From positions 1,240,001 through 1,304,000 of the forward strand of contig JBAJFG010000545.1 in NCBI GenBank assembly GCA_037903475.1: a DNA stretch of 64,000 nucleotides, given 5' to 3'. Origin of the DNA: Ancylostoma caninum. Taxonomy: Eukaryota > Nematoda > Chromadorea > Rhabditida > Ancylostomatidae. Of this stretch, positions 27,614 to 56,945 are shown in pieces. A program made the translations under genes and the position numbers. The notes below the pieces were generated by a model. It saw only the letters and a list, made by a program, of their open reading frames with translations, was not told the DNA's origin and made no database searches. Position 1 is the first letter of the stretch, and each line of letters begins with the position of its first letter.

Positions 27614-28838
27614 TTAGAATGCTTCCAGGATCTTGTCCACTACCTCGTGAACGTTCTTACTCCTGAACTTGTACGGGACTTGAACCGAGACGCTTGGCGT
27701 TAGTCGTATAACTTCGGTTACGTCAGTATCTGAATTAAACTATTTGAATCCGTATATTTAGGGGCGAGGCACTTTTTCAACTGTGAATTAAAATAATTTT
27801 GTTGAAAGACGTAGCGATTTTTTGTCTTACTGTCGAATCCAACCACTACGATTCGATTCCACCACGGAATGAATAGCCTTGGCACATGTTTTGTGTTTTG
27901 CCTGAATAGTAAAGGAAGTTAATTTCTTATCAAAAACTTTTGAAAATATTAATCGATCCCTTCGAATAGACCAAAAATTCGATTAGTTGAAAGTGAAGCA
28001 CGCTATGTCCTAATGAAGAAGAAAGAGCTCCTGGATAATAACACTTTGAAGAGGCGTTATAGTTGCTTTTCTTTGTTCCTCCTACATATAAGTAAGTGTA
28101 CTATTCATATAGATACAATCTAGTGATGAGATCTTGTTTTTCTGCTGTTGGTGAACATCAGGCTTCTTTTCAATTACTGATTATGAGCAGTAGCTCAGTT
28201 CTCCTGACCATCTTAGTGTTACTGGGGAACAAACGAAGGAAAAATAACTATAGTGTTCTCCCACTTTCATAAACACGTATTTTTTCAAAACAAAATCGAT
28301 TGAAAGGAGACTTAACAACGAAACTAAGCTCATTTCTATGTATTCATACTTTTCTTCCATAGCTTTTTATAATATGTTTTAAATCAGCTTTTGCGGTAGT
28401 TCATTATCCGGTGTCATTTCTTCCATCTACACAAAACAGTCTGTGAAAGGCTCATTCTTATTTTGTTTTACATCTTTTTTCTTTCTTCCTCTCTCTCTCT
28501 TTTTGTTGATCACCCACCCTTGAGCTAAAGGGATATCCTGCTTCTGATGTGCCTGATACATTCAAGCCCTTCTCACTATTAGAGGCCATAAATGCCACAA
28601 ATCTTCTTAATTCTGCCAGCCTCCGAGACAAAGGCCTAATCATTAGCTGTCAACTCAGGTGCTGAGAAGCAGGCTTGCGAATTCCTTTAGAATTTTATTA
28701 TTAGGGGCAACACACATAACAGAAATGGATCGTATTCTCCATTCTTACAGATCTTACCATTAGAGAAGAGAAATCAAGTTAACTAGTGAAATTGCTCCAT
28801 TTACGTTACCCCTCATCGTTCCCAGCTAGCGGCCATAT

Positions 28839-28877
<39 letters not shown>

Positions 28878-31251
28878 TTGAACACGCACGTAGGCGTGCG
28901 TGACAGTTAGCAACAAAATTAGATTAAAACAATAAAAGATCAACCAAACGAACAACCAAACAAAGACCAACGGAGGACATTGGATTAAGGATTAGTAATT
29001 TTGGGATGAGAGGAGTAGGGCTTAGGAATGTTTTATATACTGATGTGTAGTAACTAAAGGATATGTAAAGGACCAGGTGCGGTTCAGAGCCGGAAGTGCA
29101 ATTGTTTATCAATATTTTTCATTTTTATCTTTTCCTACATTTTTGTGCTACTTAAAGGACTCACTGTGCTGAAATGAAGACCAAGCAGTTGGCGCGTCCC
29201 TTCAATTGCTTGAATACATTTATTTCATAGAGAGCCCTAAATAGGAAATGCGACCAGATAGTGGGGAGATCGTTATATCGAAGGATTTCCAAGTCCTTTT
29301 GTGAACTGTCAGCCAAACTAACTGTGCAGTATTCGAGTGTTCGTTGGTGCTTCGGAGCTGTGTGTTCGGTTCCAGATTTTTCGCAAACTCATCGTAGGAG
29401 ACAGCCATTCTGTCGAGGGCCTTATTCAGATTGATTGGTAATTCAGGCACGTAACCATATGTAGCAATTCCCATTGTCGACACGTCGGTCCTTTCGAAGA
29501 AGCGCGAGGCGACAAATTTTATAAGACGCCTCTCCTGAAAGGCATTGGTCCAATAGAATTCCGAAACCTGGGCCGTTCATTCAAAAGAAAATAATGTTAA
29601 GAAGCAACTGCTTCAATGCACTACCACGTAAATTTAAAGGCACCGTTCTCCATCTAAACTGTCTCGAGATTTTCTATGCGGAGAAATTTACGGGGATCAC
29701 AGTGATATAGGTGTTTTTGTGCAAAACTGCCAAAGAATTATTTTTGGAGCCCTAACTTTCGGGGAGCTAGTGTGCGGAGCAAACCCGGCAATACAGACTT
29801 CTTGCATTTTGCACTCCCCTGCTGCTCATACATATAGCATATTTCCTATCCTATTACGGAGTGGATGATGAGGAACGCTTACGAGAAGTACAATTTTCCT
29901 CAGAAGGAGCGCTCCCGGGAGGGCCTTATCCCGAAATCTCGTCCTTCCGCGTTGCCCCCCCCCCCCTGTTTCACCCAAAAGCTCCCTAGATATTAGGGCT
30001 GGAAAAGGTGTTGTTGGCAATTTTACAAGGAATCAACTCTATCTTTGGGATAAACAGTTTCTGGGTGGAAATGTGAACATTTCAAAAAGGATCAGATGCT
30101 AGTGACGAGGCCTTATTTTGCATGCGTATTGATTTTGAAGGTGCATTCATATCCACAATCAATATATATGAAAAGTGAAGTCCCGAGCTAGGGCTCAGGC
30201 AGCCTAGAACTTTCTAAATGACACTTTTAAGTACATTCATTGTGTCAAACAGAAGAATAGATTTAGCTGTATGGAAAGCTACGGAGGTTTACATCACCAT
30301 CCCTCATTGCTAGAATGTGACAAAAATTTTTACAAAATCACTCGAAAGTATCCTCGAATACTTAGGGATATTACTGCTTTTTCCGTTACTGCTTCTCTAA
30401 CATCTCATTCTTGACAACTTAAATCTGAATTTGACCATGAATTGTGTGTGTGTTTTTGGAATTCAAGGGACCAGCTCTTTTTGCAAAAGCTCAGCTTTTT
30501 TCTTAGCCGTTCTCTCCTCTCTTTCCTTCATCTGCTAACACCTCTAGCAGGAATGAAGATTGAAAACACCTTTTCTTACTGGTTTTCCACGATCACTGAT
30601 GGATTAGTAAGCAAACCGAAATTTCAACTAAGTGGAGCGCTATTTCGATGCACAAAACCTTCAATCCAATGCATTACAAGCAATGGTAAACGCTGGCCTT
30701 ACCTGTGCATATCGGGTTTCATTCTTTCCAAAGTTGTAAAGATCGGCAACGACAAGACAATTAACGTTGTCCTTTATCGGCACTAAAACGATAGGTTTTA
30801 CCTACGTCACAACAGTTACAGAAGGACGGAGCGTTTTACTGGAATAAAGCGATGCTCGGCCGAGCCCTGCGATTGGCCAATAGCTCAGCAGCAGCGATCT
30901 TCCTCGTACAACGCTCCACATTCTACGGGATGATTCCCAACAAAGCTGTCTGATGGAGATTCGCGGCCCAACGAGAGAGATCTTGGCGGTTGAATTTCCC
31001 CTAATTCCATTTACCAGATGAAGGCTTAGGAAGAACTTCAATGATTTGCTTTCGATTTCTTCCATTTCCTTAATTTATTTCAGACCTCTGTTACGAATAG
31101 GAAGAGTGAAGTGCCTATTGTTGGCTAATAATTATTTCGAGCACTCACCTACATCCTTTAGCACATCCTTTTGTTTTTTATTGTTTGTTGGAACTGGTTC
31201 AGAGACAGTAATGAAAATGGCTAGAATTGCACAGCTCAGGAACATATGCAT
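27614..31251 (-). CDS. Gene A: secreted degenerate vWA-domain protein, 217 aa
   Basis: Six phase-consistent exons: 31251-31149, 30782-30703, 29534-29323, 29236-29165, 27901-27831 and 27729-27614 (TAA). The first encodes a signal peptide (MHMFLSCAILAIFITV). The rest follows a von Willebrand A fold: strand NCLVVADLYNFG, a helix, strand STMGIATYGYV, helix, GRANCLVFISA, RIVVVGFDNTDVTEVI and the final VHEVVDKILEAF. The metal-site motif DxSxS is replaced by DLYNF, so divalent-cation adhesion is unlikely. This is the plain member of the family: no repeat exon lies between signal peptide and domain. It runs on the same strand as genes B-D. Probably a secreted, possibly host- or cuticle-facing protein; the exact role is unknown. 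Fold assignment is by pattern, not by search. Confidence 0.8.
28840..28880. repeat. ATTT microsatellite
   Basis: About ten tandem TTTA units in the fourth intron of gene A, between the exons at 29236-29165 and 27901-27831. Confidence 0.9.
30838..30932. mobile_element. Small inverted-repeat element, GATTGG family
   Basis: Bounded by GGAGCGTT and AACGCTCC, with an internal CTGCGATTGGCCAATAGCTC. The element at 35399-35524 has the same ends (TGGAGCGTTATA) and core (GCGATTGGTCAA), which supports a common MITE family. It lies in the first intron of gene A. Confidence 0.45.
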
Positions 31252-31255
31252 TTCT

Positions 31256-31257
31256 CT
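31256..31257 (-). promoter_or_regulatory. Probable trans-splice acceptor of gene A
   Basis: CTTCATTTCAG stands four bases before the start codon at 31251. The same arrangement occurs in genes B, C and D. Confidence 0.5.
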
Positions 31258-34901: not shown

Positions 34902-37900
34902 TTAAAAAGCAGCCAGAATATCATCGACGACGAGCCGTACATGTTTTTCTTCGTAATGGTGGGGCACCATGAGTGAGGTCCCTTGCGGCGATTCCACCAG
35001 GTTGCTGAGGTCCGTGTCTGGAACATTCAGAGACTTTGTTGATTCTTCAGGATAGATGGCTTCCACAATGGGAACCTTTTTTAATGGTTTGTAAATCAAA
35101 AGAAATGTCGTTCCCACCATTAAATCCAACTGCAACGACTCTTTCCCACTCGTGACCAAGCTTCAGGTACTTGGAATTGCTAAAATGAGTACGATAAGAA
35201 TAGTCGGACGTGAACTTTTCTACGATAGAGAAACCCAATCTGTACTTCTAAATGAAGTAAGTGCGATTTTTTTTAGTGTACGAGTTTTTGTTTAAAGCTT
35301 TCTTAAGATATCAAAACAGCATCGGACGAGTTAACTATCTATGATCACCCGATTCGTTGTGGGTCTCACCAAGAAAAGCGAATAACCTACCAGATTTGGG
35401 ATGTGGAGCGTTATATGTACCTGGAGAGGACGGCACGCCCAAGCTTCGCGATTGGTCAACTCACGCAAGAGGCCAGTAGCAGAGCACGGCCGTGTCGCCC
35501 TTTCAGGTATAACGCTCAACATACTAAATTATTCGGTTCCAAATAAATCAAAGACCAAAATATCCAAAAAAGGAAGAACTCTTGAATCTTTGGGGGAAGG
35601 AAGGAATTGCTGTGAAGTACGTAATTTCTCATATTGGCTTCAAGAACTTACATTTTCTGAGGAGAAGCAATTGATTTGTCCGCTGAGAAGAACACCAAAC
35701 AATTGGCTCGACCTTTCAGATCCTTGAATTTTTTGAGCGCACACAGGGCGCTGGAATGAGAAATCTTTGAAAAATTTAAGCATCACAGATGCACTATTAA
35801 CTCAACTCACTCTGATGTAATCGAATGTAGGCGATCGCTTCGGAGTTCGGTGTCTATCTGTACATTCTTGGCGAATCCCCTGTGGCTAATTGCCATTTTG
35901 TTCAGTGCTGGATCAAGATTGATTGGCAGCTCGGGTACGTAGCCGTATGCCGCAATGCCTGCCGTCGAAACATCGGTGCGTTGGAAGAAGAGCGAGCTGA
36001 CTTCCCTGATGAACCTCTTCTCCTGAACTTGGTTTAGTTACGATTGATTTATTGCGGAGTATTCAGGCATATTAAACTGTACGTAAACAATTTATTAAAC
36101 AGTACGTGAACAAATGGATATAGAAATAAAAATGAACAGCAAAAAACCACATGATAGTAGGCAATGACGAGTAATAAATGGTTTCTTCGTGGCCTTACTC
36201 ATCATGCATCACTACATTGCTACAGTACCTTCAATTACAATCTTCTATCACAGAATGTCGTCCATCTGGCTTGCCGCGCCGCACCACTTGCGTGAAGCGG
36301 CAAACCAGCTGGGTGCTGGGTTGTCGGGTGTTATCGATATTGATTTTTTGCGGATGTTTTTACTCGAGCATCTCGGAATGCTGACCAAGACACAGAGGAA
36401 ACGGTGGAAAACACTGCCCGATAACAACGGCGTCCAGCTGGTCTGCCGCGCTACGTAGGGGGTGCGGCGCGGCCGACAAGACAGGAGTATTCTTTGCAGG
36501 CGTGGTTGACTGGCACCTTATGTCAATAGCCTTTCCTGCATAGGAGGTCTCTTGAGCAGTACTATACCGTCAGTTTAGTACACTTAAATTAACCATACAC
36601 CACTAGTTCGGTTCGACTACACGTCCAAGTCCGTTCTCCGCCCGGTTAGAACGACATGAAAAGTTGTGCATATAACCTTTTTCATTATTCAATTTTCTGA
36701 AATGCCTTTTTTGTTCATTCTGTTTCTCACCTGTTCATAAAGCTTCTCATTGTGACCATAGCTGTATAGATCCGCTACAAAAAGACAGTGAACACTGTCC
36801 TTCAACAAATCTGAAATGGTCCAAAAAGTCATGAATCATTGTGAAGAACTCTTCAAGAAAGAGAACTTATATAACTGGGTGAATAAGCACAGAGCCTATT
36901 ACTGCTTGAAATTATTTCGAAACAATGGCAGAAGCATGCTGCCTTCAGAATCCTATGCTTTGTGTAACTGTCAGGTTCCTTTTTCTTCTACCAACTTTTT
37001 ACAAGAAGTTGCAATGAAGTTTCGAAATCTGGCAGTTAAATAATACACGGGATCAAAGCCGTAGTAAAAAAAGGTTAAAATATACCTGCTGTAGTGGTTG
37101 GTGTTTGCGTTGACGTTGTCGGCAATAGAGTGCCTGTGGTTGTAGCTGCAGCAGTTGACATGCTTGAAGACGTAGAAGGTGAGTCAGTCGTCGTTGTGTT
37201 TTCTTTGACATGGGTTGTGGAAGAGATGGAGTCACTTGCTGTTCCTGCAGATGACGTCTCTACGGTCGTGAAGCCTGTAGTCGAGGTGAACGACGGGTCA
37301 GATGTCGTTGTGTCTTCTCTGACATGGGTTGTGGAAGAGATGGAGTCACTTGCTGTTCCTGCAGATGACGTCTCTACGGTCGTGAAGCCTGTAGTCGAGG
37401 TGAACGACGGGTCAGATGTTGTTGTGTCTTCTCTGACATGGGTTGTGGAAGAGATGGAGTCACTTGCTGTTCCTGCAGATGACGTCTCTACGGTCGTGAA
37501 GCCTGTAGTCGAGGTGAACGACGGGTCAGATGTTGTTGTGTCTTCTCTGACATGGGTTGTGGAAGAGATGGAGTCACTTGCTGTTCCTGCAGATGACGTC
37601 TCTACGGTCGTGAAGCCTGTAGTCGAGGTGAACGACGGGTCAGATGTTGTTGTGTCTTCTCTGACATGGGTTGTGGAAGAGATGGAGTCACTTGCTGTTC
37701 CTGCAGATGACGTCTCTACGGTCGTGAAGCCTGTAGTCGAGGTGAACGACGGGTCAGATGTTGTTGTGTCTTCTCTGACATGGGTTGTGGAAGAGATGGA
37801 GTCACTTGCTGTTCCTGCAGATGACGTCTCTACGGTCGTGAAGCCTGTAGTCGAGGTGAACGACGGGTCCGATGTTGTTGTGTCTTCTCTGACATGGGTT

Positions 37901-40842
37901 GTGGAAGAGATGGAGTCACTTGCTGGTCCTGCAGATGACGTCTCTACGGTCGTGAAGCCTGTAGTCGAGGTGAACGACGGGTCAGATGTTGTTGTGTCTT
38001 CTCTGACATGGGTTGTGGAAGAGATGGAGTCACTTGCTGTTCCTGCAGATGACGTCTCTACGGTCGTGAAGCCTGTAGTCGAGGTGAACGACGGGTCAGA
38101 TGTTGTTGTGTCTTCTCTGACATGGGTTGTGGAAGAGATGGAGTCACTTGCTGTTCCTGCAGATGACGTCTCTACGGTCGTGAAGCCTGTAGTCGAGGTG
38201 AACGACGGGTCAGATGTTGTTGTGTCTTCTCTGACATGGGTTGTGGAAGAGATGGAGTCACTTGCTGTTCCTGCAGATGACGTCTCTACGGTCGTGAAGC
38301 CTGTAGTCGAGGTGAACGACGGGTCAGATGTTGTTGTGTCTTCTCTGACATGGGTTGTGGAAGAGATGGAGTCACTTGCTGTTCCTGCAGATGACGTCTC
38401 TACGGTCGTGAAGCCTGTAGTCGAGGTGAACGACGGGTCAGATGTTGTTGTGTCTTCTCTGACATGGGTTGTGGAAGAGATGGAGTCACTTGCTGTTCCT
38501 GCAGATGACGTCTCTACGGTCGTGAAGCCTGTAGTCGAGGTGAACGACGGGTCAGATGTTGTTGTGTCTTCTCTGACATGGGTTGTGGAAGAGATGGAGT
38601 CACTTGCTGTTCCTGCAGATGACGTCTCTACGGTCGTGAAGCCTGTAGTCGAGGTGAACGACGGGTCAGATGTTGTTGTGTCTTCTCTGACATGGGTTGT
38701 GGAAGAGATGGAGTCACTTGCTGTTCCTGCAGATGACGTCTCTACGGTCGTGAAGCCTGTAGTCGAGGTGAACGACGGGTCAGATGTTGTTGTGTCTTCT
38801 CTGACATGGGTTGTGGAAGAGATGGAGTCACTTGCTGTTCCTGCAGATGACGTCTCTACGGTCGTGAAGCCTGTAGTCGAGGTGAACGACGGGTCAGATG
38901 TTGTTGTGTCTTCTCTGACATGGGTTGTGGAAGAGATGGAGTCACTTGCTGTTCCTGCAGATGACGTCTCTACGGTCGTGAAGCCTGTAGTCGAGGTGAA
39001 CGACGGGTCCGATGTTGTTGTGTCTTCTCTGACATGGGTTGTGGAAGAGATGGAGTCACTTGCTGTTCCTGCAGATGACGTCTCTACGGTCGTGAAGCCT
39101 GTAGTCGAGGTGAACGACGGGTCAGATGTTGTTGTGTCTTCTCTGACATGGGTTGTGGAAGAGATGGAGTCACTTGCTGTTCCTGCAGATGACGTCTCTA
39201 CGGTCGTGAAGCCTGTAGTCGAGGTGAACGACGGGTCCGATGTTGTTGTGTCTTCTCTGACATGGGTTGTGGAAGAGATGGAGTCACTTGCTGTTCCTGC
39301 AGATGACGTCTCTACGGTCGTGAAGCCTGTAGTCGAGGTGAACGACGGGTCAGATGTTGTTGTGTCTTCTCTGACATGGGTTGTGGAAGATATGGAGTCA
39401 CTTGCTGTTCCTGCAGATGACGTCTCTACGGTCGTGAAGCCTCTAGTCGAGGTGAACGACGGATCAGATGTTGTTGGCTCTTCTCTGACATGGGTTGTGG
39501 AGAGAAGGGGAGTTATAGGTGGATCAGATGATTTCGTTGAAGGAGTGGGCGTAGAATCTTCATTCGGCTTCGTCACACATGTAGTGTTTGTGATTTCCTC
39601 CGTGATTAACATTAGCACATATTTAGAAGAGGTGTTCTCTTCTTCCTCGGTGACTACAGAAGATGATGCGTTCCTCTTGACCTTTGAAGTAAATGTTGTT
39701 GTCGTTGTTGTACAGAGCTTGTCTTTCGAGATGAACGTCGTTGAAGTTGTGCTATTGGCTCTTGTTTCTGACAGCGACTTTGTCGAATTCGCATCACCAT
39801 AGCACATTCCCTCTTTCACGTTGCTTGCTCCAGTGTGGATTGAAACTGCCGCAGGAAAGGCTGAAAACAAGATAGTTTTTATTGTTACTGACTCGATGAA
39901 ATTTCTTTCGAAGGTCTATTGTTCGATCAGATTAAAATATCTATCCTCATAATTTCCTCTGACACCATGTGGATCATCTATCACGGTTAGAATGAGTGCG
40001 TAGATCTGCCCTGTAGTCACAAATAGTCATGCGCATGAAAAATCTTCAGAATTTACTCATACAAACTTTCCGAAACCCTCAACAGCTAGGCTGAATCCGA
40101 CAAAATTTTCACCAATTGCATCATAGTAAAAAGAGGAAAGTTAGGTCTGGAAGATAACATCAGTAGTCCCAGAAAGCAGACAAGCGAGCACCGAGCGAGT
40201 AAGAAGGAAGCTTGAAAGGGTCAGAGTGAGCATATTTCCTCTCCCTCAGCGTTTTCCCTATTTCGTTGCGAGGTCCGCTTTGCTGATCTTTTGACGCCAC
40301 GTTACTCTGTCGTGGTCCTGGTCGAGATGGATCGTAACCAACTTGAAGTCGGTGTGCGGAGTGTGAAGCCATCGTTGTTTCAGTCGTTCTTTTGGTCGCT
40401 TTCCTGGTATATCTAGAAGCCAATCCTACTGACTTTATCGCCTCCCGGAGGAAGGACGTAGTAGGTAGTAGTGGGTGGTAGTGGTAATAGGATGTGGGAT
40501 CTGACAGCTATCACGTTCTCTTTTAGTCTCCACCTGATCCGAACCGCTCATTCCTTCCTTCAGGAATTTCTCACCGGTATCTGACTCTACACATTCCAAG
40601 TACATTCCACATCATAGAATTCTAAAGCTGAGATGATTGTGAGCTGACGGATTCCAACAGGCATAGAGGACGACGAAGAATGAGGAAACTCCGCAAAACA
40701 ATTCCTTTTTTCGCTGTGATAGGTGTTCAAGTGAATGAATAAAAAACTGACCTCCTGTATCATTTCTTGTAGCTGACGCAAGCACTGGGATGACACCGCA
40801 AAAGCAGGCCACTAGAATTACGCCAATCAGGAGCCTTTCCAT
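34902..40842 (-). CDS. Gene B: secreted mucin-like repeat protein with vWA-like domain, ~1,144 aa
   Basis: Seven phase-consistent exons: 40842-40752, 39860-37086, 36810-36731, 36022-35811, 35750-35652, 35179-35118 and 35017-34902 (TAA). Exon 1 is a signal peptide (MERLLIGVILVACFCGVIPV). Exon 2 holds a Cys-containing Thr-rich domain (FISKDKLCTTTTTTFTSK) and then 20 tandem 38-residue repeats, about 55% Ser/Thr, which should be heavily O-glycosylated. Exons 3-7 form the vWA-like domain (HCLFVADLYSYG; STAGIAAYGYV; GRANCLVFFSAD; RVVAVGFNDTDLSNLV; VVDDILAAF). The DxSxS metal motif reads DLYSY, so it is lost. Start 40842 was preferred over the ATG at 40857 because a CTTTAG acceptor falls between them. 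Plausible roles, by analogy only, are surface-coat or secreted adhesin-type mucin. Confidence 0.85.
35399..35524. mobile_element. Small inverted-repeat element, GATTGG family
   Basis: The ends ATGTGGAGCGTTATA and TATAACGCTCAACAT pair over about 15 bases with two mismatches. The core contains GCGATTGGTCAAC. It lies in the intron of gene B between exons 5 and 6. Confidence 0.6.
36240..36500. mobile_element. GC-rich inverted-repeat element
   Basis: Both ends carry GCCGCGCCGCACC...GCGGCA(A/G)ACCAGCTGG in inverted orientation around a short unique core. The same modules recur at 51115-51372. It lies in the intron between exons 3 and 4 of gene B and is markedly GC-rich against the flanks. Confidence 0.6.
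37207..39490 (-). repeat. 20 x 114-bp tandem repeat inside gene B
   Basis: The string GACATGGGTTGTGGAAGA recurs every 114 bases from 37207 to 39373, with a variant start at 39487. Each unit encodes 38 residues on the minus strand (TTHVREDTTTSDPSF, then TSTTGFTTVETSSAG).  Only a handful of substitutions separate the units (for example at 37307, 37870, 37925, 39010 and 39238), so the array expanded or was homogenised recently. Because 114 is a multiple of three, the opposite strand is also open over the array; that is a by-product. Confidence 0.97.
40235..40420 (-). mobile_element. RTE-type LINE 3' fragment
   Basis: A minus-strand frame reads IPGKRPKERLKQRWLHTPHT and goes on to DQDHDRVTWRQKISKADLATK. 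This is the conserved C-terminal end of nematode RTE reverse-transcriptase ORFs, the same segment as at 58571-58760. It is strongly 5'-truncated and inactive, and lies in intron 1 of gene B. Confidence 0.8.
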
Positions 40843-41959: not shown

Positions 41960-43944
41960 TCTTTTCGGAACAGTTCTCAACTCGGTCTGAAACTGTTGGA
42001 ATCAGCAAGGCGACTGTAGCAAGGTGACTCGGTTTAATTTTTTCCTTAGATCAGGGTTTTTGCCTATATCTGCCCCGGAAATCTCGCAGGTGAAATTCTT
42101 ATTGGTGGAGGGGATTGTTTGACGTGTTTATAGCCAAAAAATCACTCATTCCGTATACTAATGCCATTTTCATTGGGTTACAGTAGGATCAGTGTAAAAA
42201 ATTGGAAGAAAATGCCACTTACTCAAGGTATTGAGAATTTAATGAAAATGTTCGCAAAGTTTGGGAAAAAAGCAGAACAGATTCTTTCCATCAGAAAAAG
42301 GAAATATCAAGAAAATTGGCAATTATGTATAATCTCAGTGAAGATAAAATTTCACTGTAGTTCTTTTCCATTGCTTTCTGATAAATTTCTTTTATTTCAT
42401 CACATTGAAGACAAGAAATGTGATGATTTTACTGCATTGACTGTCATCATTTATTGACCACTGACAGGCTGCATTGATAATCAGAGTATGGGCGAAAAAA
42501 TCAGGTAAATGACGTTTTATCTTTCGATAGAAGACATTTCCTGGTCTATTTACGACTTAAGCGATTTCTTCTAACTGTAGGGTTCTAGCACAACATTTAC
42601 GACATTTATAATGTCATTCATGGTGAATGAGGACGGGAAGATGACAGCGACACCGTGCGGAGGTTTAACCAGCCGGATTAAAGGTTATTGCCTTAAGAAA
42701 TCGGAAAACACCGAAAATGATGGGGAAGATCTTGTTCGAGGAAATGCACTTAACGGCGTTAAAGAATTGAATTCAAATTTTGAAAAAAATTCAATAGTAT
42801 TGATTTAATACTATCATTAGATTCCACAGCCTCCACCTTACGCCAAAGCTTTTTAGGATATGTTTTATAAGTGGCAAGCCAGTCGTATTCCCTCTGAACG
42901 AGATCTGAGTTAGCTGTAGAGATGCAAGGACACCTCTTATGTCAAATATCGAAGATTATGTATTGCTATCCACACAACTGTAGTTACGGCTTCAAGTCAG
43001 AAACTGGCGTCAGAACACACTTCCTCAATGCCGATTATGCAAGCGTCCACAGACACTTACCCCCCCCCCCCCCTTCCTCTCCTCTCCCGCGCGGCGTCAG
43101 GCCACTTTGCCTCCTTGAATATGAGAAAAACAGCCAAGCGCGGTTAGAAAGACGCATTTCAGGGCCTTATTGATCATACTAGAACAATACTGAACCGTCA
43201 TTCCTGGGAAAACATCGGAAACACCTTTTTTACGCACTGTCCGACCGGAACCTGCCACGTGTGTGTGGCAGGTGTCCGATAATCGAAAGCTCAACCCAGG
43301 TGGTGCTAAGGCCAACCTTGTGAGGACGTGAATGATATGAAGAGAAAAGGAAATAGCGACTTACTACTTTGAAAAGAAGATGAAACAGTTAAGCGCATCC
43401 TTCAATCGTGGACACAATGGTTCTGTAATGGATCCTTTTCAGCTGCTGGTGCTGATGGATGGACTACTGCTATACCTCACGCGGAATGTAGCAGCAAGCA
43501 CCTCGGGTGACAATGATTTCGATGCATATTGATTATAAGGCCGTGCTGCAGCGCCATCGAAGATACGCTGTCGAAAATAGATAGGTAGCGAAGTCGATGT
43601 CGCCGAACTACGTACGTTACTCAGGATGCTACACTTCATGTGGAGTATGGAGGTAGGCAGAGGTGTAATATAGTAAGAAAAGAATGTGTAAAGGAATTCA
43701 TTGATTTCATTCTTGATTTCTCTGTCCCGGCAGTATTTCTAGTATCGATCGAGCACGGTCCAAATCAATTACTAATCTAAGGACCACCTCTTAAACTCGA
43801 ATATTTGGGAAAGCAGGCTATATCCAGAACTTCTCCTCGTTTCCACAAGGTTGCATCGCTCTCTGCTATCCGAGCAACCAATTTTTTTGCACGTTATTTC
43901 AACATGGAATATTCGATATCTGGCCGGTCGATTCTCTGATATAC

Positions 43945-44008
43945 GTGGTGCGGAATGGCTCAGCTGACGGGCGGTACAGCGTGAGGCAAGGATTTTTGAG
44001 AGAGACTG
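43945..44008. mobile_element. Solo end of the mariner-like MITE
   Basis: The sequence from GGCTCAGCTGACGGGCGG to TTTTTGAGAGAGACTG, followed by TA, matches the right half of the 53376-53519 element. The left half is missing. Confidence 0.6.
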
Positions 44009-44143
44009 TATGTGTACTTTGTTCTAATGTTCCTTAAGAGATATTGAAGAGCTTGTTGTTATCCATCATGTTATTCAAAGCGGCGTCACAACGAATGCAG
44101 TGATTTGCAACACACGCAACTCTTTCGACAGAATGCGACAGCT

Positions 44144-45389
44144 TTATTTAACGAGATTTCGACAATCCACGAACAGTATACGAACAAAGCCATAGGTGCG
44201 AAGTCCCGGTTTTGAACTATTTTTATTTCCGAAGAGGTAGTGGCTGATGTACTTTATGAGCTCCGTTTCCTGAAAAACAAAATAGAGAATGTTCACAAGT
44301 CTCATGCATGGTTCAGGATTGCTTCTATAAGCAGAAGTAAGCATTGCCTTTTTTTCTTCGAACTTAGGTTTATAGAGTTGACAGAAAATGCCGATTCCAG
44401 CACGAAAATAGAGGTGACATGTCAAATTTTGACCCTTTTGCGCAAATTTTGAGAGAATTCTCTGAAGTGCCATATCTACGACATGCTTATCGTAATCTTG
44501 CTAAAATGGGGTTACGGTGCAGGATGGGTACGATATTCCTCCATCCCCAAATTCAGAGTTTCAGTGGAAGAAAATTGAAGTTTTTTCTCGTTAATGTGGA
44601 ATAGTGCCGGCAGAGTTTTTAGAAACAACAGTGCTTTTTTTCTGGCTTTTTCACTCAATCAGGGGTATTTTTGCTAGTTTTTTATTACTGTTTTTTATTT
44701 GATGGCACGTCACTTTGTGAATTAGTGTAGCAGACCAATATTATAATTAAATGGGTTGAAAATGATTGATATCTTATGAGAAACCTAGAGGAAATTCACC
44801 GAATAGTGATGTTGCTGAGTCCTTCTGCGTTGATTTTATGTTCGGAGTAGCATGTGCTGCGGCAGAACCTCCGTTCGGTTTCTTGGCTGGTACAGTATTT
44901 GAGACTATGTGCTTAGCTGTGATAGTTTCGTAAGTGACAGTTGTCTTGACGCCATTTTCTGTTTCCTCCATAGAAGAACTATTTCGTTTTGTTTCCATAA
45001 CGAATGTTTTCACTGTTGTTTCACATTTTTTGTCTTTTGACGTGAATTTTTTCACTGAAGAACAGTTACAGCTGCTTTCGTGAGTAGATTCGTCTGGACT
45101 GTAGGTCATCAGCGGCGCTTGACACTTCAACTCTTTTCCTGTGTCCGGCAGTTCTACGCTGAGCTCTGAAAATTCACAATGTACATTGTTAAGGAGTGAG
45201 GAGAACATCCAGAAAAACGCAAATCTACTATCTACTTCTCTCGATTTACAATGGGGTGAGAGCCTAATAACGACGTAGTAGAAGTGAAATTTACAGTAAC
45301 CAACCCACTGCAGGACCACTTGATAGCGTTGTCGCGAGAACGACAGCTTCAAGAATGCAGAACGCTGTGAGATGCCTGGAACTTGTCAT
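44144..45389 (-). pseudogene. Gene D: broken paralogue of genes A-C
   Basis: Exon 1 (45389-45305) is a signal peptide (MTSSRHLTAFCILEAVVLAT). Exon 2 (45165-44800) is a Cys/Thr-rich N-terminal domain clearly related to gene B (FTSKDKKCETTVKTF; METKRNSSSMEETENG) and ends in the same phase, but has no tandem repeat. The conserved 80-nt vWA exon was not found. The next vWA exon is recognisable at 44269 (ETELIKYISHYLF, then GLRTYGFV) but runs into TAA at 44144, and later vWA exons are absent. The gene is either dead or makes only the secreted N-terminal domain. It is on the same strand as A-C and between B and C. Confidence 0.7.
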
Positions 45390-45394
45390 CTATC

Positions 45395-45396
45395 CT
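45395..45396 (-). promoter_or_regulatory. Probable trans-splice acceptor of gene D
   Basis: GATGTTTTCAG ends five bases before the ATG at 45389. Confidence 0.45.
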
Positions 45397-46401: not shown

Positions 46402-46862
46402 AGGCAGCAGGAGCTGAAATTCTCGACTCTGAGCTGAGCTGCGGGTGGTGAGGTACAGACTCGGCACATCATAAATGTGAAACGAACACAGACAGTGATG
46501 GCTTACCTGCAGAGAAAATGGAACATTCGTCGAGAACACGCATGGCTGTGTTCGTGCGCGGACAAGTTTTCCCCGGCGCGAAAGCCATTGCGGCGCGTGG
46601 TTTCGGCCGAGTCCCGCCATGAAACCCTGTGAATTGAATGCATTTCATTTCCCTTTGCGCCAAACCACGCACCGCAATGGCTTTTGCGCCGTGGAAAATT
46701 CGTCCGCGCGCGAACACGGCCAGGCGTGTTCGCGACGAATGTTCCATTTTCTCTGCAGGTAAGCCATCATTGTCTGTGTTCGTTTCACATTTATGATGTG
46801 CTGAGTCTGTGCTTCATCACCCACAGCTCAGCTCGGAGTCGAGGATTTCGCTCCTGCTGCCT
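46402..46862. mobile_element. 461-bp palindromic element flanked by TTAA
   Basis: Two arms of roughly 200 bases are inverted copies (AGGCAGCAGGAGC at the left end, GCTCCTGCTGCCT at the right end), with a small unique centre near 46620. TTAA stands directly on both sides (46398-46401 and 46863-46866), as expected of a piggyBac-type target duplication. The arms include GTGAAACGAACACAGACA and GGAAAATGGAACATTCGTCG-type segments. No coding sequence is present. Confidence 0.8.
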
Positions 46863-47054
46863 TTAAGTAACTAGTACAATTGCATAAATGGAACACAATA
46901 TTGAAGGACAAAATTTTGCTGCTGGAAAGCAAACCTACTTAACCAACATAACATATCACGGATTTGTGATGTATTTTATCTCTTGTATGGTGAGGCCGAA
47001 AATTACCCATGCACATACCTTGAATCGAATAAAATTCTGTACAAGGACTCTGAC

Positions 47055-47107
47055 TCCTCCATGGAAGAACTATTTCGTTCTGTTTCCATAACGAATGTTT
47101 TCATCGT
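47055..47107 (-). pseudogene. Fragment of a fifth family member's N-terminal exon
   Basis: About 53 bases (GAAGAACTATTTCGTTCTG, TTTCCATAACGAATGTTTTC) repeat the piece of gene D exon 2 at about 44968-45020 with only a few differences. No other part of the gene was found nearby, so this is a relic of a duplication. Confidence 0.65.
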
Positions 47108-47669: not shown

Positions 47670-49260
47670 CAGGGTCAAGCATGACGATAGGAAAAACGGA
47701 CCCTCAATACGACCCCCCCCCTATTCCCTCGTCCAATCCCCACCTTTTCACGACCCCCCCCTCTGCTCTCGAATGTTTCTCTGTCCACTGAGCACTCAAC
47801 GAAGAAGACACAAAAGAAACACATTGAAAGCACAAAATTAGAACTAAAAGGAAGTAAAACAATCTTGAGGTCGATATGCATCCTTTCTTATCCGATAGGA
47901 CTAGACAGCCAGCAAGAGCGATCACGTCATCATGTGTCAAAACAGGACTGCTTGGGAGCGCATAGCTCGGTTTCAGCGCCAGCATTTGCGCGGCCGCGGG
48001 TTCGATCCCAAAAAATTTTTGCACGAGTCGGAACCGCTTCAGAATTTAGTGTTGAGTAGAGAGGATGGAAAGATTTGAAAATGAGGTGAGGGAAGCGGAA
48101 CCGATCGATTACACATGCGAGAATTTGACTGTAGGGCCCGCCATTTTGTGGAAAAGGGTGAATTATACCTTGTACTGAAATTCTCTGACACCAAATCAAC
48201 AGATGCTTTTCAGTGTGTGCATAGAGGACAATCAGTCCTATATTTTGCCAGAGTTTCAATTTTCTATGTGTTCATACTTTTTTGGGAGCTCGATGGGAAA
48301 TCGATGGGAAATTTGCCGATCTTCCCATCGATTTCCCATCTAAATTGTGGGAAAACGAGCGAGCTTCGTGGAGCTAGATTCTGTATTCAAATGGGGAATT
48401 TCCTCGCCTAAAACTCGTAACAGGAAAGTTTCCTTGATTTTTGCAAATTGCTTCTCAGTGGTTTCCCAAACGGATTTGCTCCATTTTCACCATCTGTTCA
48501 AATTGCGAGGTTTTCACTTCTTCAACTCCTATGAAGAGAATTTGCCTTTTACCAAAATTTCATTACCTTCACGTGATAGAGCTCCAAGCATTCATTCTTT
48601 GTCCCCATTATCGCGCCCCAATATTTGCTCCTGCTTCAGTGAGTTAGATGGGAAATTTCCCCTCGGAGACCCGAAAATTTGGAAAATTTCCCATCGAGCT
48701 CCCAAAAACAAATGAAGCCTTAGAAAATTGAAACTCTGGCAAAAGATAGAGCTGATCATCCCCTATGGATATATCGAAAAGCGTTCGCTGAATTTGAGTC
48801 AGAGAACTTCAGCACGAGGTCTAAGCACCCTACTTTTTCACGTTCTGACGGGCCCTGCAGGCGAATCCTCGCATGTGCAATCGATTGATCTCGCTACCCA
48901 CACTCTATTTTTTAAACATTCCCGTCCTCTTCACTCCACACTTGATTTTGAAGTGATTTCGACCCGTGCAAAAATTTGTTGAGGGGGCCGGGAATCGAAC
49001 CTGTGGGTGCGCCAAAGCCGATTCCTCTCATGCGCTGCCAATCACTCCTGTTTCAACACGTAATGACGTGATAGTTCCTGCTGGCAATGGTGGACCGTCA
49101 TTCATAATGTCATAAAACAGTCACGAATTTACGTTCAATGGTCAAACCACCCCTCTACTTACCCCACCCCCACCTCTCCAAACGACCCCTCCCCCTTTCC
49201 CAACCCCCCCCCCCCCGCACGACCCCCTCATGGGAAGTTCCCATCGGACGCTTGACCCTG
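47670..49260. mobile_element. 1,591-bp foldback hAT-like element
   Basis: The ends CAGGGTCAAGC and GCTTGACCCTG are perfect inverted repeats of the CAGGG type seen in hAT elements. They are flanked by a perfect 8-bp duplication TTCATGTG (47662-47669 and 49261-49268), the hAT hallmark. Two long inverted arms (about 47900-48300 and 48650-49090) enclose a short centre of repeated CGATGGGAAAT motifs. Poly-C tracts lie near both ends. No transposase is present, so it is non-autonomous. Each arm contains a tRNA-like segment with a box B (47998-48008 on plus; 48991-49001 on minus). Confidence 0.85.
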
Positions 49261-49958: not shown

Positions 49959-52900
49959 CTAAAATGCTTCCAAAATGGCATTGACGACGTCGTTTACGTT
50001 CTTCTCCGTGAACATGTACGGCACCTTTACGTAGACTCCTAGTGGCGCTTTAACGATGTTTCTCAAGTCAGCATCTGAAAAAGTGAATAATCGAAGTGTA
50101 GAAATAAGTGGAGAAAGCGCCTAGTTCACTAGGAAGCAAATAACATTATGTACATTCAAATACATGAATGTCCGAGAAAAAGTAGCAATAGAATCCAGGA
50201 GGAAAGACAAGGAGGGCAATATACCTCTATCTTTCGCGAACATTTGGACTTCCGTTTCGGTTTGTTATTTTTGAATCAGTTATTAAATTTTTAAATCAGT
50301 TAGTAAATTAAATAATTTGATCAGTTAGCTCCGTCTAAAGTATGGACAAAATGTAACTTCAACACTTTACGTACTGCTGTATCCAACGGCAACGATTCTC
50401 TGGAACTCCCCGCGTCGAGGATTCAACACAGGCAGATCTTTTATATCTCGCCTAAATTGTATATAATATTATAGTTATTCACAATGCGACACTGTCTGTT
50501 GTAACCATTGCCTGCACAACTTTCCAGGACGTGCACCGAACAAAGAAACTGCCGAAATGACCATATAACGGAATACAGACAACGGATAGGCACAGGCTCG
50601 TATCTAGCAGATTTTACCTCTATCTAGTTGCATAAACGCTAAGCTATGTATGTAAACGAACTCATGTGAAGCTTGTTCTCGTAGCTGTACAGCACGAACA
50701 TGGCCTGAACAACGTGATACGTTGATATCAAAATCTGTTGACACATCCCCTTGGAGGAGTGGAGCTGGAGTTGATGAAAGGTTGGGAGGAAGTGGGAAGG
50801 TGTGAGGGGAGATAACTTCATGCTGTGTTTCTGCTGTAGAGTACTTGTTTCAGCCCGCTTTTCTGGGTCATATCACCGATTTTTTTCAGCTAATGTGGTA
50901 TGTGATTAGTTCATGAAAGTTTCTGCACATCCTGGTTATTTCTATCTAGATCGCATACCAACAGAAGGACTTACTCCGCCGATATGAATACCAAGCAGTT
51001 TGCTCTTCGTCTCCAGCGGAAATCGTTGAGCTCATCGATGGCTCTGGAAAGGAACGGCTCATCTAACGAAGGTAGAGGGGAATACATGTAAAGTGCCGGC
51101 CAATCACTCCTGCTTCACGGAAATCGCCGTCTGATCTGTCGCGCCTAGCCTAGCCGCCCGACGTATCAGCTCACCGCCTCGCGAGGGTGGCGCGGTGCGG
51201 CAGACCAGAAGGCAGATTTTAAAAAAACAGGAAAGAAGCCAAAGGAGTCAAACGACAAAAAAATCAATGTCGTCGACGACCAAACGTCTGACGATCACAA
51301 CGCCCAGCTGACCTGCCGCGCCGCGTAGGTGGTGTGGCGCGGCAGACTAGGCGGTCGGTATTCTGTGATGCAAGACTTCATTGCGGGACATTTTCTCTCA
51401 TAAATATTTGTGTACGTTGCCGATAGCATATTGAAATTTTCAGTACTCATTATCTATCAATGTTCTACAGGGCCAATGATGCTAGCGATTCGCGCATAAT
51501 CGGTTCGCATAGAAATCACTACAGGGGCTCTTTAACACTCTGATACAGGGAAATCCAACTGCCTAGGCTTGCAAGACCCAGTACTATTCGTCACGGCGCG
51601 GCTAGCTTTATCCACGGAACGAGGCTAAAGTGAGCATGAGGTGCACTCCAAGCGTTACGAAGACGCGCTGCGCCCATAGGTACCGCGCCGCGTGGGCCCT
51701 GACAGTTGGAGTTCGTTGTGCTGGTTCAAAAATGTGCCTAAAGTAAAAATACATGGGAAACGACTCACTCAGCTGTAGTGGATGGATCATTCGTGTGTGT
51801 TAATTCGGTGTGACCTTCCATATACCTTGTGAACGTTTCGTGGGAACGCTTCATTTCACTGACTGCTGTTTTCAGATCCATTGGTGGATTCGCCACAAAT
51901 CCGTACGTTGTGACTCCCATAGCAGAGTTTTCAGTCCTGTCGAAGAACTGGGCGCTTATGTTCTTCATCAACCCCCTCTCCTAAATAGAACCAGCTGTTA
52001 TAAAATCTATCAAGAACTTTGACATCTATCGAAGATTACTACTGCATTTGTTCCCTAGGAATCATCCTCGTGTGAGATGTTATAGTGTCCGACTCAGCAG
52101 CGTTCTTTGTTTTCCAAATCTTTAATTATATGCAGAATCAGAGAATATCTCTCACCTTGTCATATAAAATGCTGAAGCTGTTGAAGTTGAGTAGGTCTCC
52201 AACAACTAAGCAGCGAACGTCCTTCTTGAGTGGTCCTAAAATCAGACGGAGTTTCCGCTGTCCATCTTTCACTACATCTACCTCACTTTTACAAAATTAG
52301 ACATTTAATCTCATTGAGTCTTATCTAATCCTAACAGGATGTGGAAGAGATGGAGCCGACGCAAGAACATGATCTCTGTGCTGGGTAGGTACGAGCTGAC
52401 CGAGCTAACATCTCAAAGTCAGATACTCGTCGGCGTGTATCCAACAGGAAAATTCATCATATCGCCCATGCCGGTTCATTGCTGGAGCAAACGAGCCTAC
52501 GTTCATCCGTTTATGCTCTTTATCCTATCCGTTGATAATACGCTGACCCATCCTCTACGAGATATATGAAAGCAAAAGCAGTAGTAACTGTGTTATAGCT
52601 GCAGGTCAACCAGGAGATTTGACCTGCAGCTGTGCATTTAATAACTGGATGCCTTTATGACCTTGGAACGCTCTGAAATTTTTTTAACGATCGTTAAACC
52701 TGAAACAAGAGGCAGCTCAGACAAAATTTTATATGAACGTTCAAAAACAACTGTTAGATGTGCGGGATTCACATGCCCTGCTGGTTCTTCTTACTTATCA
52801 TTCAAGTCCGGTCCCATCATCTCTCCTCCAAGCTTCAGCTTTTTCAAGCGCATGGTCTCTAAGCGATTGCTGACCAACCAGTTGAGATGTCTATAGACGT

Positions 52901-55900
52901 TCTGTTATTGAGTTTCAGTTTCTGTCTTTGTTATCTCTTTTCAATGCCGTTTTTCATTTCATGTGTGACTTAAAGGCGCGGTCCCATCTCACATTCGTGG
53001 TTGGAATAATGGGAGATTCTGCATCTCCTCAATACGCTGAATCCAGCGGTATAGGTACATTGTCTCGAAACCGTCTTTGAACCCGTCTTCCGGTCCAGGC
53101 CCCAGCACAGGTCTTCGTGGGGGCAAGCTGGGCTTCGTGAAAGGGTCAAACAGTTTTTTTTTTTGTCGTTTTGCTGCGACAATTACAGCGCAGAAAAACG
53201 CCCTGCTTGACAACAATTCTCTAACATACATTGTTTTTCTGTGTGGCGCTGCTGGCATATGTGCCGTACAGCCCTCTTTACTGTGACATGGCCCACTCGG
53301 TACTTACCGAAACTTATCGAGTAATAAATGTTTGTTTCTCCATCAACAGCTTCATGATGCTGCAAAGATTAGCTACAGTCTTTCTGAAAAATTCTTGCCT
53401 CACGCTGGACCGCCCGTCAGCTTAGCCACGTCACACCACGCATGATAATGCATAGGTGATGCTGCGCGGCTTAGCAGATGGGCGGTGAAGCGTGAGGCAA
53501 GTATTTTTGAGAAGGACTGTACATTTGTAATTTGGAGAAGCTGTGCAACCATCCTAGCCTATAGGCAAACAGAAACGTCAGGCACCACTGTATTGAAATG
53601 GTCATTACCAGATAACATTTCAAGTAGGACTCACTTTCTGTTTGAGTTGTGGCAACAGTTGAGCTCGTCGTATGAGATCCTGGTGTGCTTGACTGCCAAA
53701 TCGCAGAGCTATGCGGAGGAGTTTCACTGAAAGACTAAGGACTGATTTTGAAAGTCTTCCAATGAGTATTCCTGATAGTCGTACCTGGTAAGGGAACCCT
53801 TCGCTGATGTAGTGTCTTCATAGTCAAATTTGGTGGTGGGCTCCTTCGTTGTAGACTTTTCCCTGTCAAACCTGGTGGTGGGCTCCTTTGTTGTAGATTC
53901 TTCCCAGTCAAACCTGGTTGTGGGCTCCTTCGTTGTAGATTCTTCCCAGTCAAACCTGGTGGTGGGCTCCTTTGTTGTAGATTCTTCCCAGTCAAACCTG
54001 GTTGTGGGCTCTTTCGTTGTAGATTCTTCCCAGTCAAACCTGGTTGTGGGCTCCTTCGTTGTAGATTCTTCCCAGTCAAACCTGGTTGTGGGCTCCTTCG
54101 TTGTAGATTCTTCCCAGTCAAACCTGGTTGTGGGCTCTTTCGTTGTGGATTCTTCCCTGTCAAACCTGGTTGTGGGCTCTTTCGTTGTGGATTCTTCCCT
54201 GTCAAACCTGGTTGTGGGCTCCTTCGTTGTAGATTCTTCCCAGTCAAACCTGGTTGTGGGCTCTTTCGTTGTAGATTCTTCCCAGTCAAACCTGGTTGTG
54301 GGCTCCTTCGTTGTGGATTCTTCCCTGTCAAACATGGTTGTGGGCTCTTTCGTTGTAGGTTCTTCCCAGTCAAACCTGGTTGTGGGCTCCTTCGTTGTAG
54401 ATTCTTCCCAGTCAAACCTGGTGGTGGGCTCCTTCGTTGTAGATTCTTCCCAGTCAAACCTGGTGGTGGGCTCCTTCGTTGTGGATTCTTCCCTGTCAAA
54501 CATGGTTGTGGGCTCTTTCGTTGTAGATTCTTCCCAGTCAAACCTGGTTGTGGGCTCCTTCGTTGTAGATTCTTCCCAGTCAAACATGGTGTGGGCTCTT
54601 TCGTTGTAGATTCTTCCCAGTCAAACCTGGTGGTGGGCTCCTTCGTTGTAGATTCTTCCCAGTCAAACCTGGTTGTGGGCTCCTTCGTTGTAGATTCTTC
54701 CCAGTCAAACCTGGTTGTGGGCTCCTTCGTTGTAGACTTCTTCCCAGTCAAACCTGGTTGTGGGCTCCTTCGTTGTAGATTCTTCCCAGTCAAACCTGGT
54801 TGTGGGCTCTTTCGTTGTGGATTCTTCCCTGTCAAACCTGGTTGTGGGCTCTTTCGTTGTGGATTCTTCCCTGTCAAACCTGGTTGTGGGCTCCTTCGTT
54901 GTAGATTCTTCCCAGTCAAACCTGGTTGTGGGCTCTTTCGTTGTGGATTCTTCCCTGTCAAACCTGGTTGTGGGCTCTTTTGTAGATTCTTCCCAGTCAA
55001 ACCTGGTTGTGGGCTCTTTCGTTGTGGATTCTTCCCTGTCAAACCTGGTTGTGGGCTCTTTCGTTGTGGATTCTTCCCTGTCAAACCTGGTTGTGGGCTC
55101 CTTCGTTGTAGATTCTTCCCAGTCAAACCTGGTTGTGGGCTCTTTCGTTGTAGATTCTTCCCAGTCAAACCTGGTTGTGGGCTCCTTCGTTGTGGATTCT
55201 TCCCTGTCAAACATGGTTGTGGGCTCTTTCGTTGTAGATTCTTCCCAGTCAAACCTGGTGGTGGGCTCCTTCGTTGTAGATTCTTCCCAGTCAAACCTGG
55301 TTGTGGGCTCCTTCGTTGTAGATTCTTCCCAGTCAAACCTGGTTGTGGGCTCCTTCGTTGTAGACTCTTCCCAGTCAAACCTGGTTGTGGGCTCCTTCGT
55401 TGTAGATTCTTCCCAGTCAAACCTGGTTGTGGGCTCTTTCGTTGTGGATTCTTCCCTGTCAAACCTGGTTGTGGGCTCTTTCGTTGTGGATTCTTCCCTG
55501 TCAAACCTGGTTGTGGGCTCCTTCGTTGTAGATTCTTCCCAGTCAAACCTGGTTGTGGGCTCTTTCGTTGTGGATTCTTCCCTGTCAAACCTGGTTGTGG
55601 GCTCTTTCGTTGTGGATTCTTCCCTGTCAAACCTGGTGGTGGGCTCCTTCATTGTAGACTCTTCCCAGTCAAACCTGGTGGTTGTTTCGAGCCCATCTGT
55701 TGTACGGTCATCGTAGTCAAATGTGGTGGTTGGTTTGGGTTCCGCTGTTGTGCGATCATCGTAGTCATGCGTAGGGGTGGGCTTGGGCCCCTCTGTCGTA
55801 CGCTCATCGTAGTCAAATGTGGTGGTTGGTTTGGGTTCCGCTGTTGTGCGATCATCGTAGTCATGCGTAGGGGTGGGTTTGGGCCCCTCTGTCGTACGCT

Positions 55901-56945
55901 CATCGTAGTCAAATGTGGTGGTTGGTTTGGGTTCCGCTGTTGTGCGATCATCGTAGTCATGCGTAGGGGTGGGTTTGTGCCCCTCTGTCGTACGCTCATC
56001 GTAATCAAATGTGGTGGTTGGTTTGGGTTCCGCTGTTGTGCGATCATCGTAGTCATGCGTAGGGGTGGGTTTGGGCCCCTCTGTCGTACGCTCATCGTAG
56101 TCAAATGTGGTGGTTGGTTTGGGTTCCGCTGTTGTCCGATCATCGTAGTCATGCGTAGTGGTGGGTTTGGGCCCTGTGGTGGTTGGTTTGGGTTCCGCTG
56201 TTGTGCGATCATCGTACTCATGCCTAGTGGTGGGTTTGAGCTCCTCTGTCGTACGCTCATCGTAGTCAAATGTGGTGGTTGGTTCGGGTTTCTCAGTGGT
56301 ACGCTTGGATTTAGCTGTTGTAGGTTCACTCGTTATCGGCTCCATGGTTGAAGTCTTTACTGCTACAGCACTAGTTGTAGGTAACGTACTACTACTAATT
56401 TTATAGGGTGGTTCTCGTCTACGTTTGGTGTTCTCGGTTATTTCCATTATGAAGGTTCTCACAATCCTATGAACTGTTGTGTTTCCGTCTGGATTTTCTA
56501 TAAAATATGAAGTATCTCTTACTTCTTCTGTCGTGACATTGCTCACGGATTTCACATACGCTTTTCTTTTTATAGTGGAACTCGACACAATCGATGTGTT
56601 GTTTAATACTTCCGAGAAGAAGGTTGCGTTCCCTGGGCACGCTCTCTTTTGCAGCCATTCTGCAGTTCCATTACAAATTGTTATTTTTGTTGTCGTTATT
56701 GGTGGTTGGTTGGCGACAGATATCTCTGCAATATCCTACGCTTTTCATCTGTTTCAAGTATTGACTGATGCTGCTCTCCACTTTCTCTTAGTAATTGATC
56801 ATTGATGGAACCAGACTTCTTGAACCACTCCCCTACGTAGAAATTCAACATTACCTGCTCCACCAGTATTTGCAAGTGGAGCTACGTGCAAGACAACTTC
56901 AGTGATGAGTGTTGCGAGGAGAACAAGGTTTATCAGGTTCGACAT
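49959..56945 (-). CDS. Gene C: secreted Thr/Asp-rich repeat protein with vWA-like domain
   Basis: Exon 1 (56945-56855) is a signal peptide (MSNLINLVLLATLITEVVLH). Exon 2 (56659 to about 53785) starts with an N-terminal domain related to B and D (ACPGNATFFSEVLNN; HRIVRTFIMEITENTKR) and continues into two repeat arrays. The vWA-like exons are 52235-52156, 51980-51769, 51043-50975, 50451-50375 and 50074-49959 (TAG): RCLVVGDLLNFN, SAMGVTTYGFV, RRANCLVFISAE, RIVAVGYSNADL, VVNAILEAF. The metal motif reads DLLNF. Two problems remain: a one-base gain near 54735 and a one-base loss near 54589 put a stop in the repeat array, and the donor after the array does not match the phase of 52235. The gene may be intact with sequence errors plus one unseen exon, or a decaying allele. 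Confidence 0.75.
51115..51372. mobile_element. GC-rich inverted-repeat element, second copy
   Basis: It carries the same modules as 36240-36500: GGCGCGGTGCGGCAGACCAG on the left and CTGCCGCGCCGCGTAGGTGG on the right. It lies in the gene C intron between the exons at 51980-51769 and 51043-50975. Confidence 0.55.
52989..53258 (-). CDS. Short open frame inside a gene C intron, unknown
   Basis: An 89-residue frame starts at an ATG and ends FQPRM-stop. Its second half (FDPFTKPSLPPRRP; GPGPEDGFKDGFETMYLYRW) looks like a real conserved protein end. The A-rich run before it could be an artefact or a poor splice region. It may be a retrocopy or exon of a small housekeeping gene. No family name is certain. 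Confidence 0.35.
   Translation of the reverse strand: MPAAPHRKTMYVRELLSSRAFFCAVIVAAKRQKKKLFDPFTKPSLPPRRPVLGPGPEDGFKDGFETMYLYRWIQRIEEMQNLPLFQPRM
53376..53519. mobile_element. 144-bp Tc1/mariner-like MITE
   Basis: The ends CAGTCTTTCTGAAAAATTC and GTATTTTTGAGAAGGACTG are inverted repeats that continue for about 50 bases through TTGCCTCACGCT and ACCGCCC. TA stands on both sides (53374-53375 and 53520-53521). A half copy lies at 43945-44008. Confidence 0.75.
53830..55690 (-). repeat. About 44 x 42-bp tandem repeat in gene C
   Basis: Units encode 14 residues, TTKEPTTRFDWEES, with W/R and R/M variants. One unit at 54978 lacks three bases and stays in frame. The local frame is broken between about 54589 and 54735 by opposite one-base changes. 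Confidence 0.95.
55690..56290 (-). repeat. 96-bp tandem repeat in gene C
   Basis: The string CGCTCATCGTAGTCAAATG recurs every 96 bases at 55801, 55897, 55993 (one change) and 56089, with degenerate units on both sides. Each encodes 32 residues made of two related 16-residue halves (TTAEPKPTTTFDYDER and TTEGPKPTPTHDYDDR). Confidence 0.9.

Follow-up and report, generated by a model that had tools for sequence, protein, structure and literature searches.

A hookworm locus of predicted secreted proteins that share a vWA-like module and differ in a repeat exon

Gene organization of the locus

The window analyzed here is a stretch of 64,000 nucleotides from Ancylostoma caninum (assembly GCA_037903475.1, contig JBAJFG010000545.1, positions 1,240,001 to 1,304,000 of the forward strand). 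It contains a cluster of related genes, designated A, B and C, and a remnant, D, bounded by the stop codon of A at 27614 and the ATG of C at 56945. All lie on the minus strand; read in the direction of transcription, C (56945-49959) comes first, followed by D (45165 to about 42577), B (40842-34902) and A (31251-27614). Gene structures were assembled from the genomic sequence and public gene predictions (not cDNA), and signal peptides were called by eye with a hydropathy window. Coordinates of the features are given in Table 1.

A shared module of five exons closes each of the genes A, B and C. Three of these exons have one length in all three genes (80, 212 and 116 nt for exons 1, 2 and 5), while exon 3 measures 72, 99 and 69 nt and exon 4 measures 71, 62 and 77 nt in A, B and C, respectively. 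The phases are identical (entry in phase 1, then 0, 2, 2 and 1), and every internal junction of the three genes is GT-AG. The exon comparison and these junctions confirm the three equal exon lengths and equal phases claimed in an earlier sequence-only reading of this DNA. When exon 2 of A was compared with the window, B was matched at an E-value of 2e-26 and C at 2e-16, so the similarity of the modules is far beyond chance.

The same reading had described a modular architecture, and this was borne out: A lacks an insert between signal peptide and module, B has one with 20 units of 38 residues, and that of C consists of 32- and then 14-residue units. In gene A the signal-peptide exon (31251-31149) is spliced straight to module exon 1, and splicing at the GT-AG sites reproduces the public protein prediction ANCCAN_04591 in 217 of 217 residues. 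The insert has phase 1 at both ends in B and, if its two exons are taken together, in C; it could therefore be gained, lost or resized without upsetting the remainder of the gene.

The reading frame of gene B is open across 1,144 residues. Its C-terminal part contains the whole of ANCCAN_04592 (214 residues), a public prediction made up of the tail of the repeat exon and the module. The array holds 20.3 copies of 114 bp at 99%; 19 of the 20 units deviate from the consensus at 0-1 base, the first unit at 8, and near-identity of this kind is typical of arrays shaped by unequal exchange or slippage. Serine and threonine make up 55% of the B repeats. Gene B thus combines a signal peptide, predicted from hydropathy, with Ser/Thr-rich tandem repeats, as a secreted mucin would, and C does so less clearly. 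Structure prediction for the N-terminal domain (N-domain) was not interpretable (predicted local distance difference test score, pLDDT, 57.9; predicted template modelling score 0.41).

The repeat exon of gene C carries 96/48-bp units, which are followed by 42-bp units. The acidic Thr array proposed for this gene was found, with its 32- and then 14-residue units, but a separate exon of 92 nt had been missed, and the array is broken in frame and less mucin-like than had been supposed. The N-terminal stretches of B and D are related (shuffle z = 11.0). Kinship of the C stretch with either was unsupported (z = 1.3 with B and 1.2 with D); against the N-domain of the A. ceylanicum B protein z was 3.3, with 3 of 500 shuffles scoring as high.

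Table 1. Features of the A. caninum locus (window positions)
Gene	Feature	Position	Strand	Remark
A	Exon 1, predicted signal peptide and short linker	31149..31251	-	Phase-1 end; identical to the start of P0001
A	Module exon 1	30703..30782	-	80 nt
A	Module exon 2	29323..29534	-	212 nt
A	Module exon 3	29165..29236	-	72 nt
A	Module exon 4	27831..27901	-	71 nt
A	Module exon 5 and stop	27614..27729	-	116 nt
B	Exon 1, predicted signal peptide	40752..40842	-	Phase-1 end
B	Exon 2, N-terminal domain and mucin-type repeats	37086..39860	-	2,775 nt; phase 1 both sides
B	Tandem array	37193..39505	-	20.3 x 114 bp (38 residues)
B	Module exon 1	36731..36810	-	80 nt
B	Module exon 2	35811..36022	-	212 nt
B	Module exon 3	35652..35750	-	99 nt
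B	Module exon 4	35118..35179	-	62 nt
B	Module exon 5 and stop	34902..35017	-	116 nt
C	Exon 1, predicted signal peptide	56855..56945	-	Phase-1 end
C	Exon 2, N-terminal stretch and acidic Thr-rich arrays	53785..56725	-	2,941 nt
C	Array of 96-bp (32-residue) units	55691..56174	-	5 copies
C	Array of 42-bp (14-residue) units	53808..55679	-	44.6 copies
C	Exon 3, additional Ser/Thr-rich exon	53635..53726	-	92 nt
C	Module exon 1	52156..52235	-	80 nt
C	Module exon 2	51769..51980	-	212 nt
C	Module exon 3	50975..51043	-	69 nt
C	Module exon 4	50375..50451	-	77 nt
C	Module exon 5 and stop	49959..50074	-	116 nt
D	N-terminal-domain exon, related to B N-domain	44800..45165	-	366 nt; phase 1 both sides
D	Module exon 2 remnant	44183..44269	-	29 aligned residues, then frame break and stop
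D	Possible module exon 3 remnant	43370..43408	-	Weak, E = 0.5
D	Module exon 5-like stretch	42577..42681	-	Weak, E = 0.13; open to a stop
	Fragment of D N-terminal exon, between C and D	47049..47103	-	55 bp, 51/55 bases identical

The module: predicted fold and family

The predicted structure of the module has the alternating alpha/beta arrangement of the von Willebrand factor type A (vWA) fold (pLDDT 86.6). The vWA-like assignment had been staked beforehand on structure prediction and a fold search, and both gave the vWA fold. Among the 50 fold-search matches shown were the vWA domains of VWF A1/A2, collagen VI N2, CMG2 and TRAP. VWF A1/A2, collagen VI N2 and CMG2 share 6-15% identity with the module in the matches shown, and the module differs from them in having neither a Pfam VWA match nor the metal-site motif. 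PF00092 matched neither the modules of A, B and C (E<=5) nor six relatives (E<=1); no Pfam family scored above cut-off for the modules, the N-domains or the six relatives. A PF00092 search of the A. caninum genome listed 16 matches, none of them in the window, and a sequence search of the PDB returned nothing meaningful with A alone or with a 19-row profile. UniProt already labels some family members VWFA.

Among 27 beta-1 motifs that have the aspartate of the metal-site DxSxS, the first serine is present in 2 and the second in none, the motif being replaced by D-x-(Y/F/L/N/S)-(N/S)-(F/Y). We therefore predict that the module is a vWA fold lacking the metal-site motif. If this is correct, it adds to the vWA fold a metal-free branch so far seen in strongylids only. 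TRAP-type adhesins likewise bear a vWA head on an extended repeat-bearing protein, but they belong to another phylum and have other neighbouring domains. The TRAP vWA of these apicomplexan adhesins, found among the structure matches, also differs in being metal-loaded (title of 4f1j).

Word-based searches of 5.8 billion proteins, which require shared 5-residue words, listed 8, 22 and 5 homologues, or 27 different proteins. Names are carried by 26, all strongylid, in genera that we take to belong to that group (Ancylostoma, Necator, Cylicocyclus, Cylicostephanus and Cooperia); P0013 is unnamed. Four proteins (P0023, P0024, P0026 and P0027) have what by eye is a hydrophobic N-terminus, followed by two to six matched module stretches, not all of them complete. 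Ser/Thr-rich repeats stand ahead of the module in P0009 and behind it in P0011. The multi-module strongylid proteins Aduo_006814, Y032_0073g734 and ANCCAN_01926 have the same module with Thr/Pro-rich linkers, and A. caninum loci with modules related to theirs share the exon phases of A, B and C. They differ in having four to six matched module stretches, a hydrophobic N-terminal stretch (by eye) instead of a signal peptide, and no large B- or C-type array in the sequences read.

Exon 2 of A had 12 matches at E<=1 in the A. caninum genome, 3 of them in the window; the other 9 were weak (E 0.06-0.9) and were borne out by exon-by-exon comparison with relatives. Around the known matches, 16 stretches totalling 160 kb were fetched and overlapping matches collapsed to the best; these surroundings held 24 exon-2 matches, on contigs C56 (17), C632 (4), C11 (2) and C240 (1). 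None was found in the two stretches flanking the window. Acceptor phases were as expected for 23 of 24 exon-2, 21 of 21 exon-3, 18 of 19 exon-4 and 20 of 20 exon-5 matches, the single exon-2 miss being a partial match with a stop (C56:305596). Donors were in phase for exon 1 (21/23) and exon 3 (21/21) and at the exact place for exon 2 (18/24) and exon 4 (15/19); the exon-1 acceptor varies in position, with mostly constant phase. These modules have the five exons, fixed phases and RANCLVF-type strand of one family. Because the phases are fixed across it, the equal exon lengths of A, B and C follow a family rule and are not a peculiarity of the locus. The conserved scaffold claimed for the locus is thus real, but the claim was too narrow, as a larger strongylid family has the same phases at other loci. 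Along contig C632, where gene limits are provisional, Ser/Thr-rich repeats follow one module and lie between two others. Near the end of contig C11, two partial modules, identical as protein, stand in opposite orientation (L035 and L036, at 2.2-2.7 kb and 30.4-30.9 kb); the pair may be a duplicated segment or an assembly artefact.

A tree was built from 33 modules: domain matches of <=90 bits were dropped (35 kept, 36 with C), as were three of <100 residues, and the root serves for drawing only. A split with support of 99/96 separates 11 rows (A, B, C, their relatives and a Cylicocyclus protein) from the 22 others. Each lineage includes a Necator member (RB195_020982 with A, 95/81; NECAME_19681 with B, 98/93; RB195_020984 with C, 99/97), so the three genes seem older than the divergence of the two hookworm genera. 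To judge by the locus tags, which are neighbours, A and B appear to lie side by side in three species of Ancylostoma.

Repeat turnover and possible function

The B orthologue of A. ceylanicum, ANCCEY_00756, was compared with gene B segment by segment. Identity was 69% over 113 columns of the N-domain and 78% over 165 of the module, with 88% across 24 residues from the first module exon. Across the repeats it was about 31% over about 377 columns, against 23-28% for the best off-period self-agreements. The A. ceylanicum unit is 40 residues long rather than 38, with unit-to-unit agreement of 51% versus 97%, and about five units are recognizable versus twenty. Net charge of the repeats is -1 in 270 residues in A. 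ceylanicum and -78 in 760 in A. caninum, and Ser+Thr content is 57% and 55%. As the B repeats have diverged far more than the module, the locus probably encodes secreted mucins that change quickly. For B in these two species, this agrees with the rapidly varying mucins on a conserved scaffold proposed from the sequence; C is less mucin-like, and D is decayed.

The reading we prefer, to which we give about an even chance, is that A, B and C share a metal-site-free vWA module and that B, less clearly C, encodes a secreted, O-glycosylated mucin with fast-changing repeats, forming a stalk that faces the host or the host gut. The Thr-rich repeat exon ahead of the module would make B, and less clearly C, such a mucin. 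The module would act as a metal-independent protein-binding head, fixing the mucin to a partner in the surface coat or secretions of the worm. Unequal exchange or slippage, to which the near-identical units point, would continually rewrite the array, and a changing glycan-bearing stalk would thereby be exposed to the host or host gut.

Several observations weigh against this interpretation. Support for these genes consists of sequence and predicted structure, and the signal peptides were judged from hydrophobicity and inspection alone. The turnover comparison concerns one gene in two species, and the ANCCEY_00756 model includes an extra stretch within the module, probably an unspliced intron. 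Quick change of repeats can also be neutral. In C as assembled, three array units are out of frame, with stops at 54707, 54665 and 54623; this may be an assembly error or a genuine break. The C repeat exon is acidic, with 32% Ser+Thr over the 642 in-frame residues read versus 55% in the B repeats, so "mucin" suits B better than C. With D decayed and C interrupted in the assembly, selection on the locus may have partly relaxed.

The same data were weighed under other explanations. Reproductive and matrix mucins also evolve fast. The products could be worm-internal mucins that use the shared module in cuticle, gut lining, or the coat of eggs or semen, their turnover driven by mating or matrix evolution. 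We think this rather unlikely, but placement at the host interface is itself inferential, and the hydrophobic N-terminal stretch seen by eye in the other family branch is what membrane-bound worm proteins would be expected to have. In the accessible part of PMC9865600, one von Willebrand-named secreted protein of A. ceylanicum, not mapped to this family, stands in an apparently male-only table. Against a worm-internal role, the named homologues are all parasitic strongylids, in searches limited by shared words. It is also doubtful, though conceivable, that only the module is functional and the Thr-rich arrays are near-neutral spacers resized by slippage. The almost identical B units, the three out-of-frame units of C, and the persistence of A, which has no repeat exon yet has relatives in three Ancylostoma species and Necator, would all fit spacers. 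Both B orthologues, however, hold 55-57% Ser+Thr while residue order changes, as selection for glycosylation would have it, and the family has arrays of this kind in several places. That the repeat exons form separate genes or are spurious, and are not spliced to the module, we regard as very improbable: the public A. caninum model of B does retain only the tail of the repeat exon, but the GT-AG junctions of B and C match in phase, the A. ceylanicum model joins N-domain, repeats and module in one protein, and a Cylicocyclus protein has repeats and module together.

An extension of the host-facing mucin interpretation, which we put forward tentatively and think improbable as a whole, is a hitherto undescribed two-part coat of hookworms and related worms. 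Membrane-bound strings of metal-free vWA modules would serve as tethers, and the secreted single-module proteins A, B and C would use the same module to dock on them, their phase-1 mucin exons being exchangeable and rewritten in each species. If true, a changing, sheddable glycan surface would be renewed on a constant anchor. Which molecules make the hookworm surface coat, and how they change, is in our judgement an open question, and the locus offers testable candidates. Its conserved module lends itself to expression and structure determination, and its repeat exon to typing of length and sequence among isolates. The locus would also be a clean example of a phase-symmetric exon with fast-changing repeats on a fixed scaffold.

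By analogy, the closest functional parallel appears to be the TES-120 mucins of Toxocara canis, for which we know of no shared exon module. In the accessible text of PMC3611597, these mucins (MUC-1 to MUC-5) are a small secreted family with Ser/Thr-rich stretches beside a conserved domain, tied to the shed surface coat. The hookworm proteins, with predicted secretion, are alike in these stretches beside a conserved domain within a small nematode family. TES-120 proteins differ in being shorter (176-316 residues) and in their flanking ShKT domains (accessible text of PMC3611597), where vWA is predicted here; Pfam scans of the modules, N-domains and relatives gave no match to ShKT. Proteins with von Willebrand names, mainly soluble and not mapped to the module family, are reported from Haemonchus secretions in the available part of PMC10785392. 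The available parts of PMC12193031 and PMC10735188 contain nothing on the module family, and no description of the hookworm family by vWA, mucin or locus names was found in the literature searched, from which subscription papers were largely excluded.

Gene D and neighbouring features

Gene D had been taken for an N-terminal domain without repeats. The N-terminal exon is indeed there, but so is a decayed module, with a broken exon 2 and weak remnants of exons 3 and 5; module exons 1 and 4 had no convincing counterpart among the matches listed. The 55-bp fragment of the D exon at 47049-47103 suggests a small duplication or a lost gene copy.

Repeats were also observed around C and D. Between the two genes, about 470 bp at 46398-46866 match their own reverse complement at 86% and resemble a foldback or miniature inverted-repeat transposable element, and an inverted pair of about 295 bp, 77% identical, lies at 48009-48301 and 48686-48981. 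Smaller palindromes were seen at 48292-48340 and at 53374-53521, the latter having about 55 bp in common with 43956-44010.

Elsewhere in the window, a Pfam scan of seven long open reading frames gave no match at E<=0.01. Several minus-strand reading frames, some proline-rich, occupy 11355-24000; six were scanned as single exons, without a Pfam match. ARAGORN called a tRNA-Leu (CAA) at 4930-5014.
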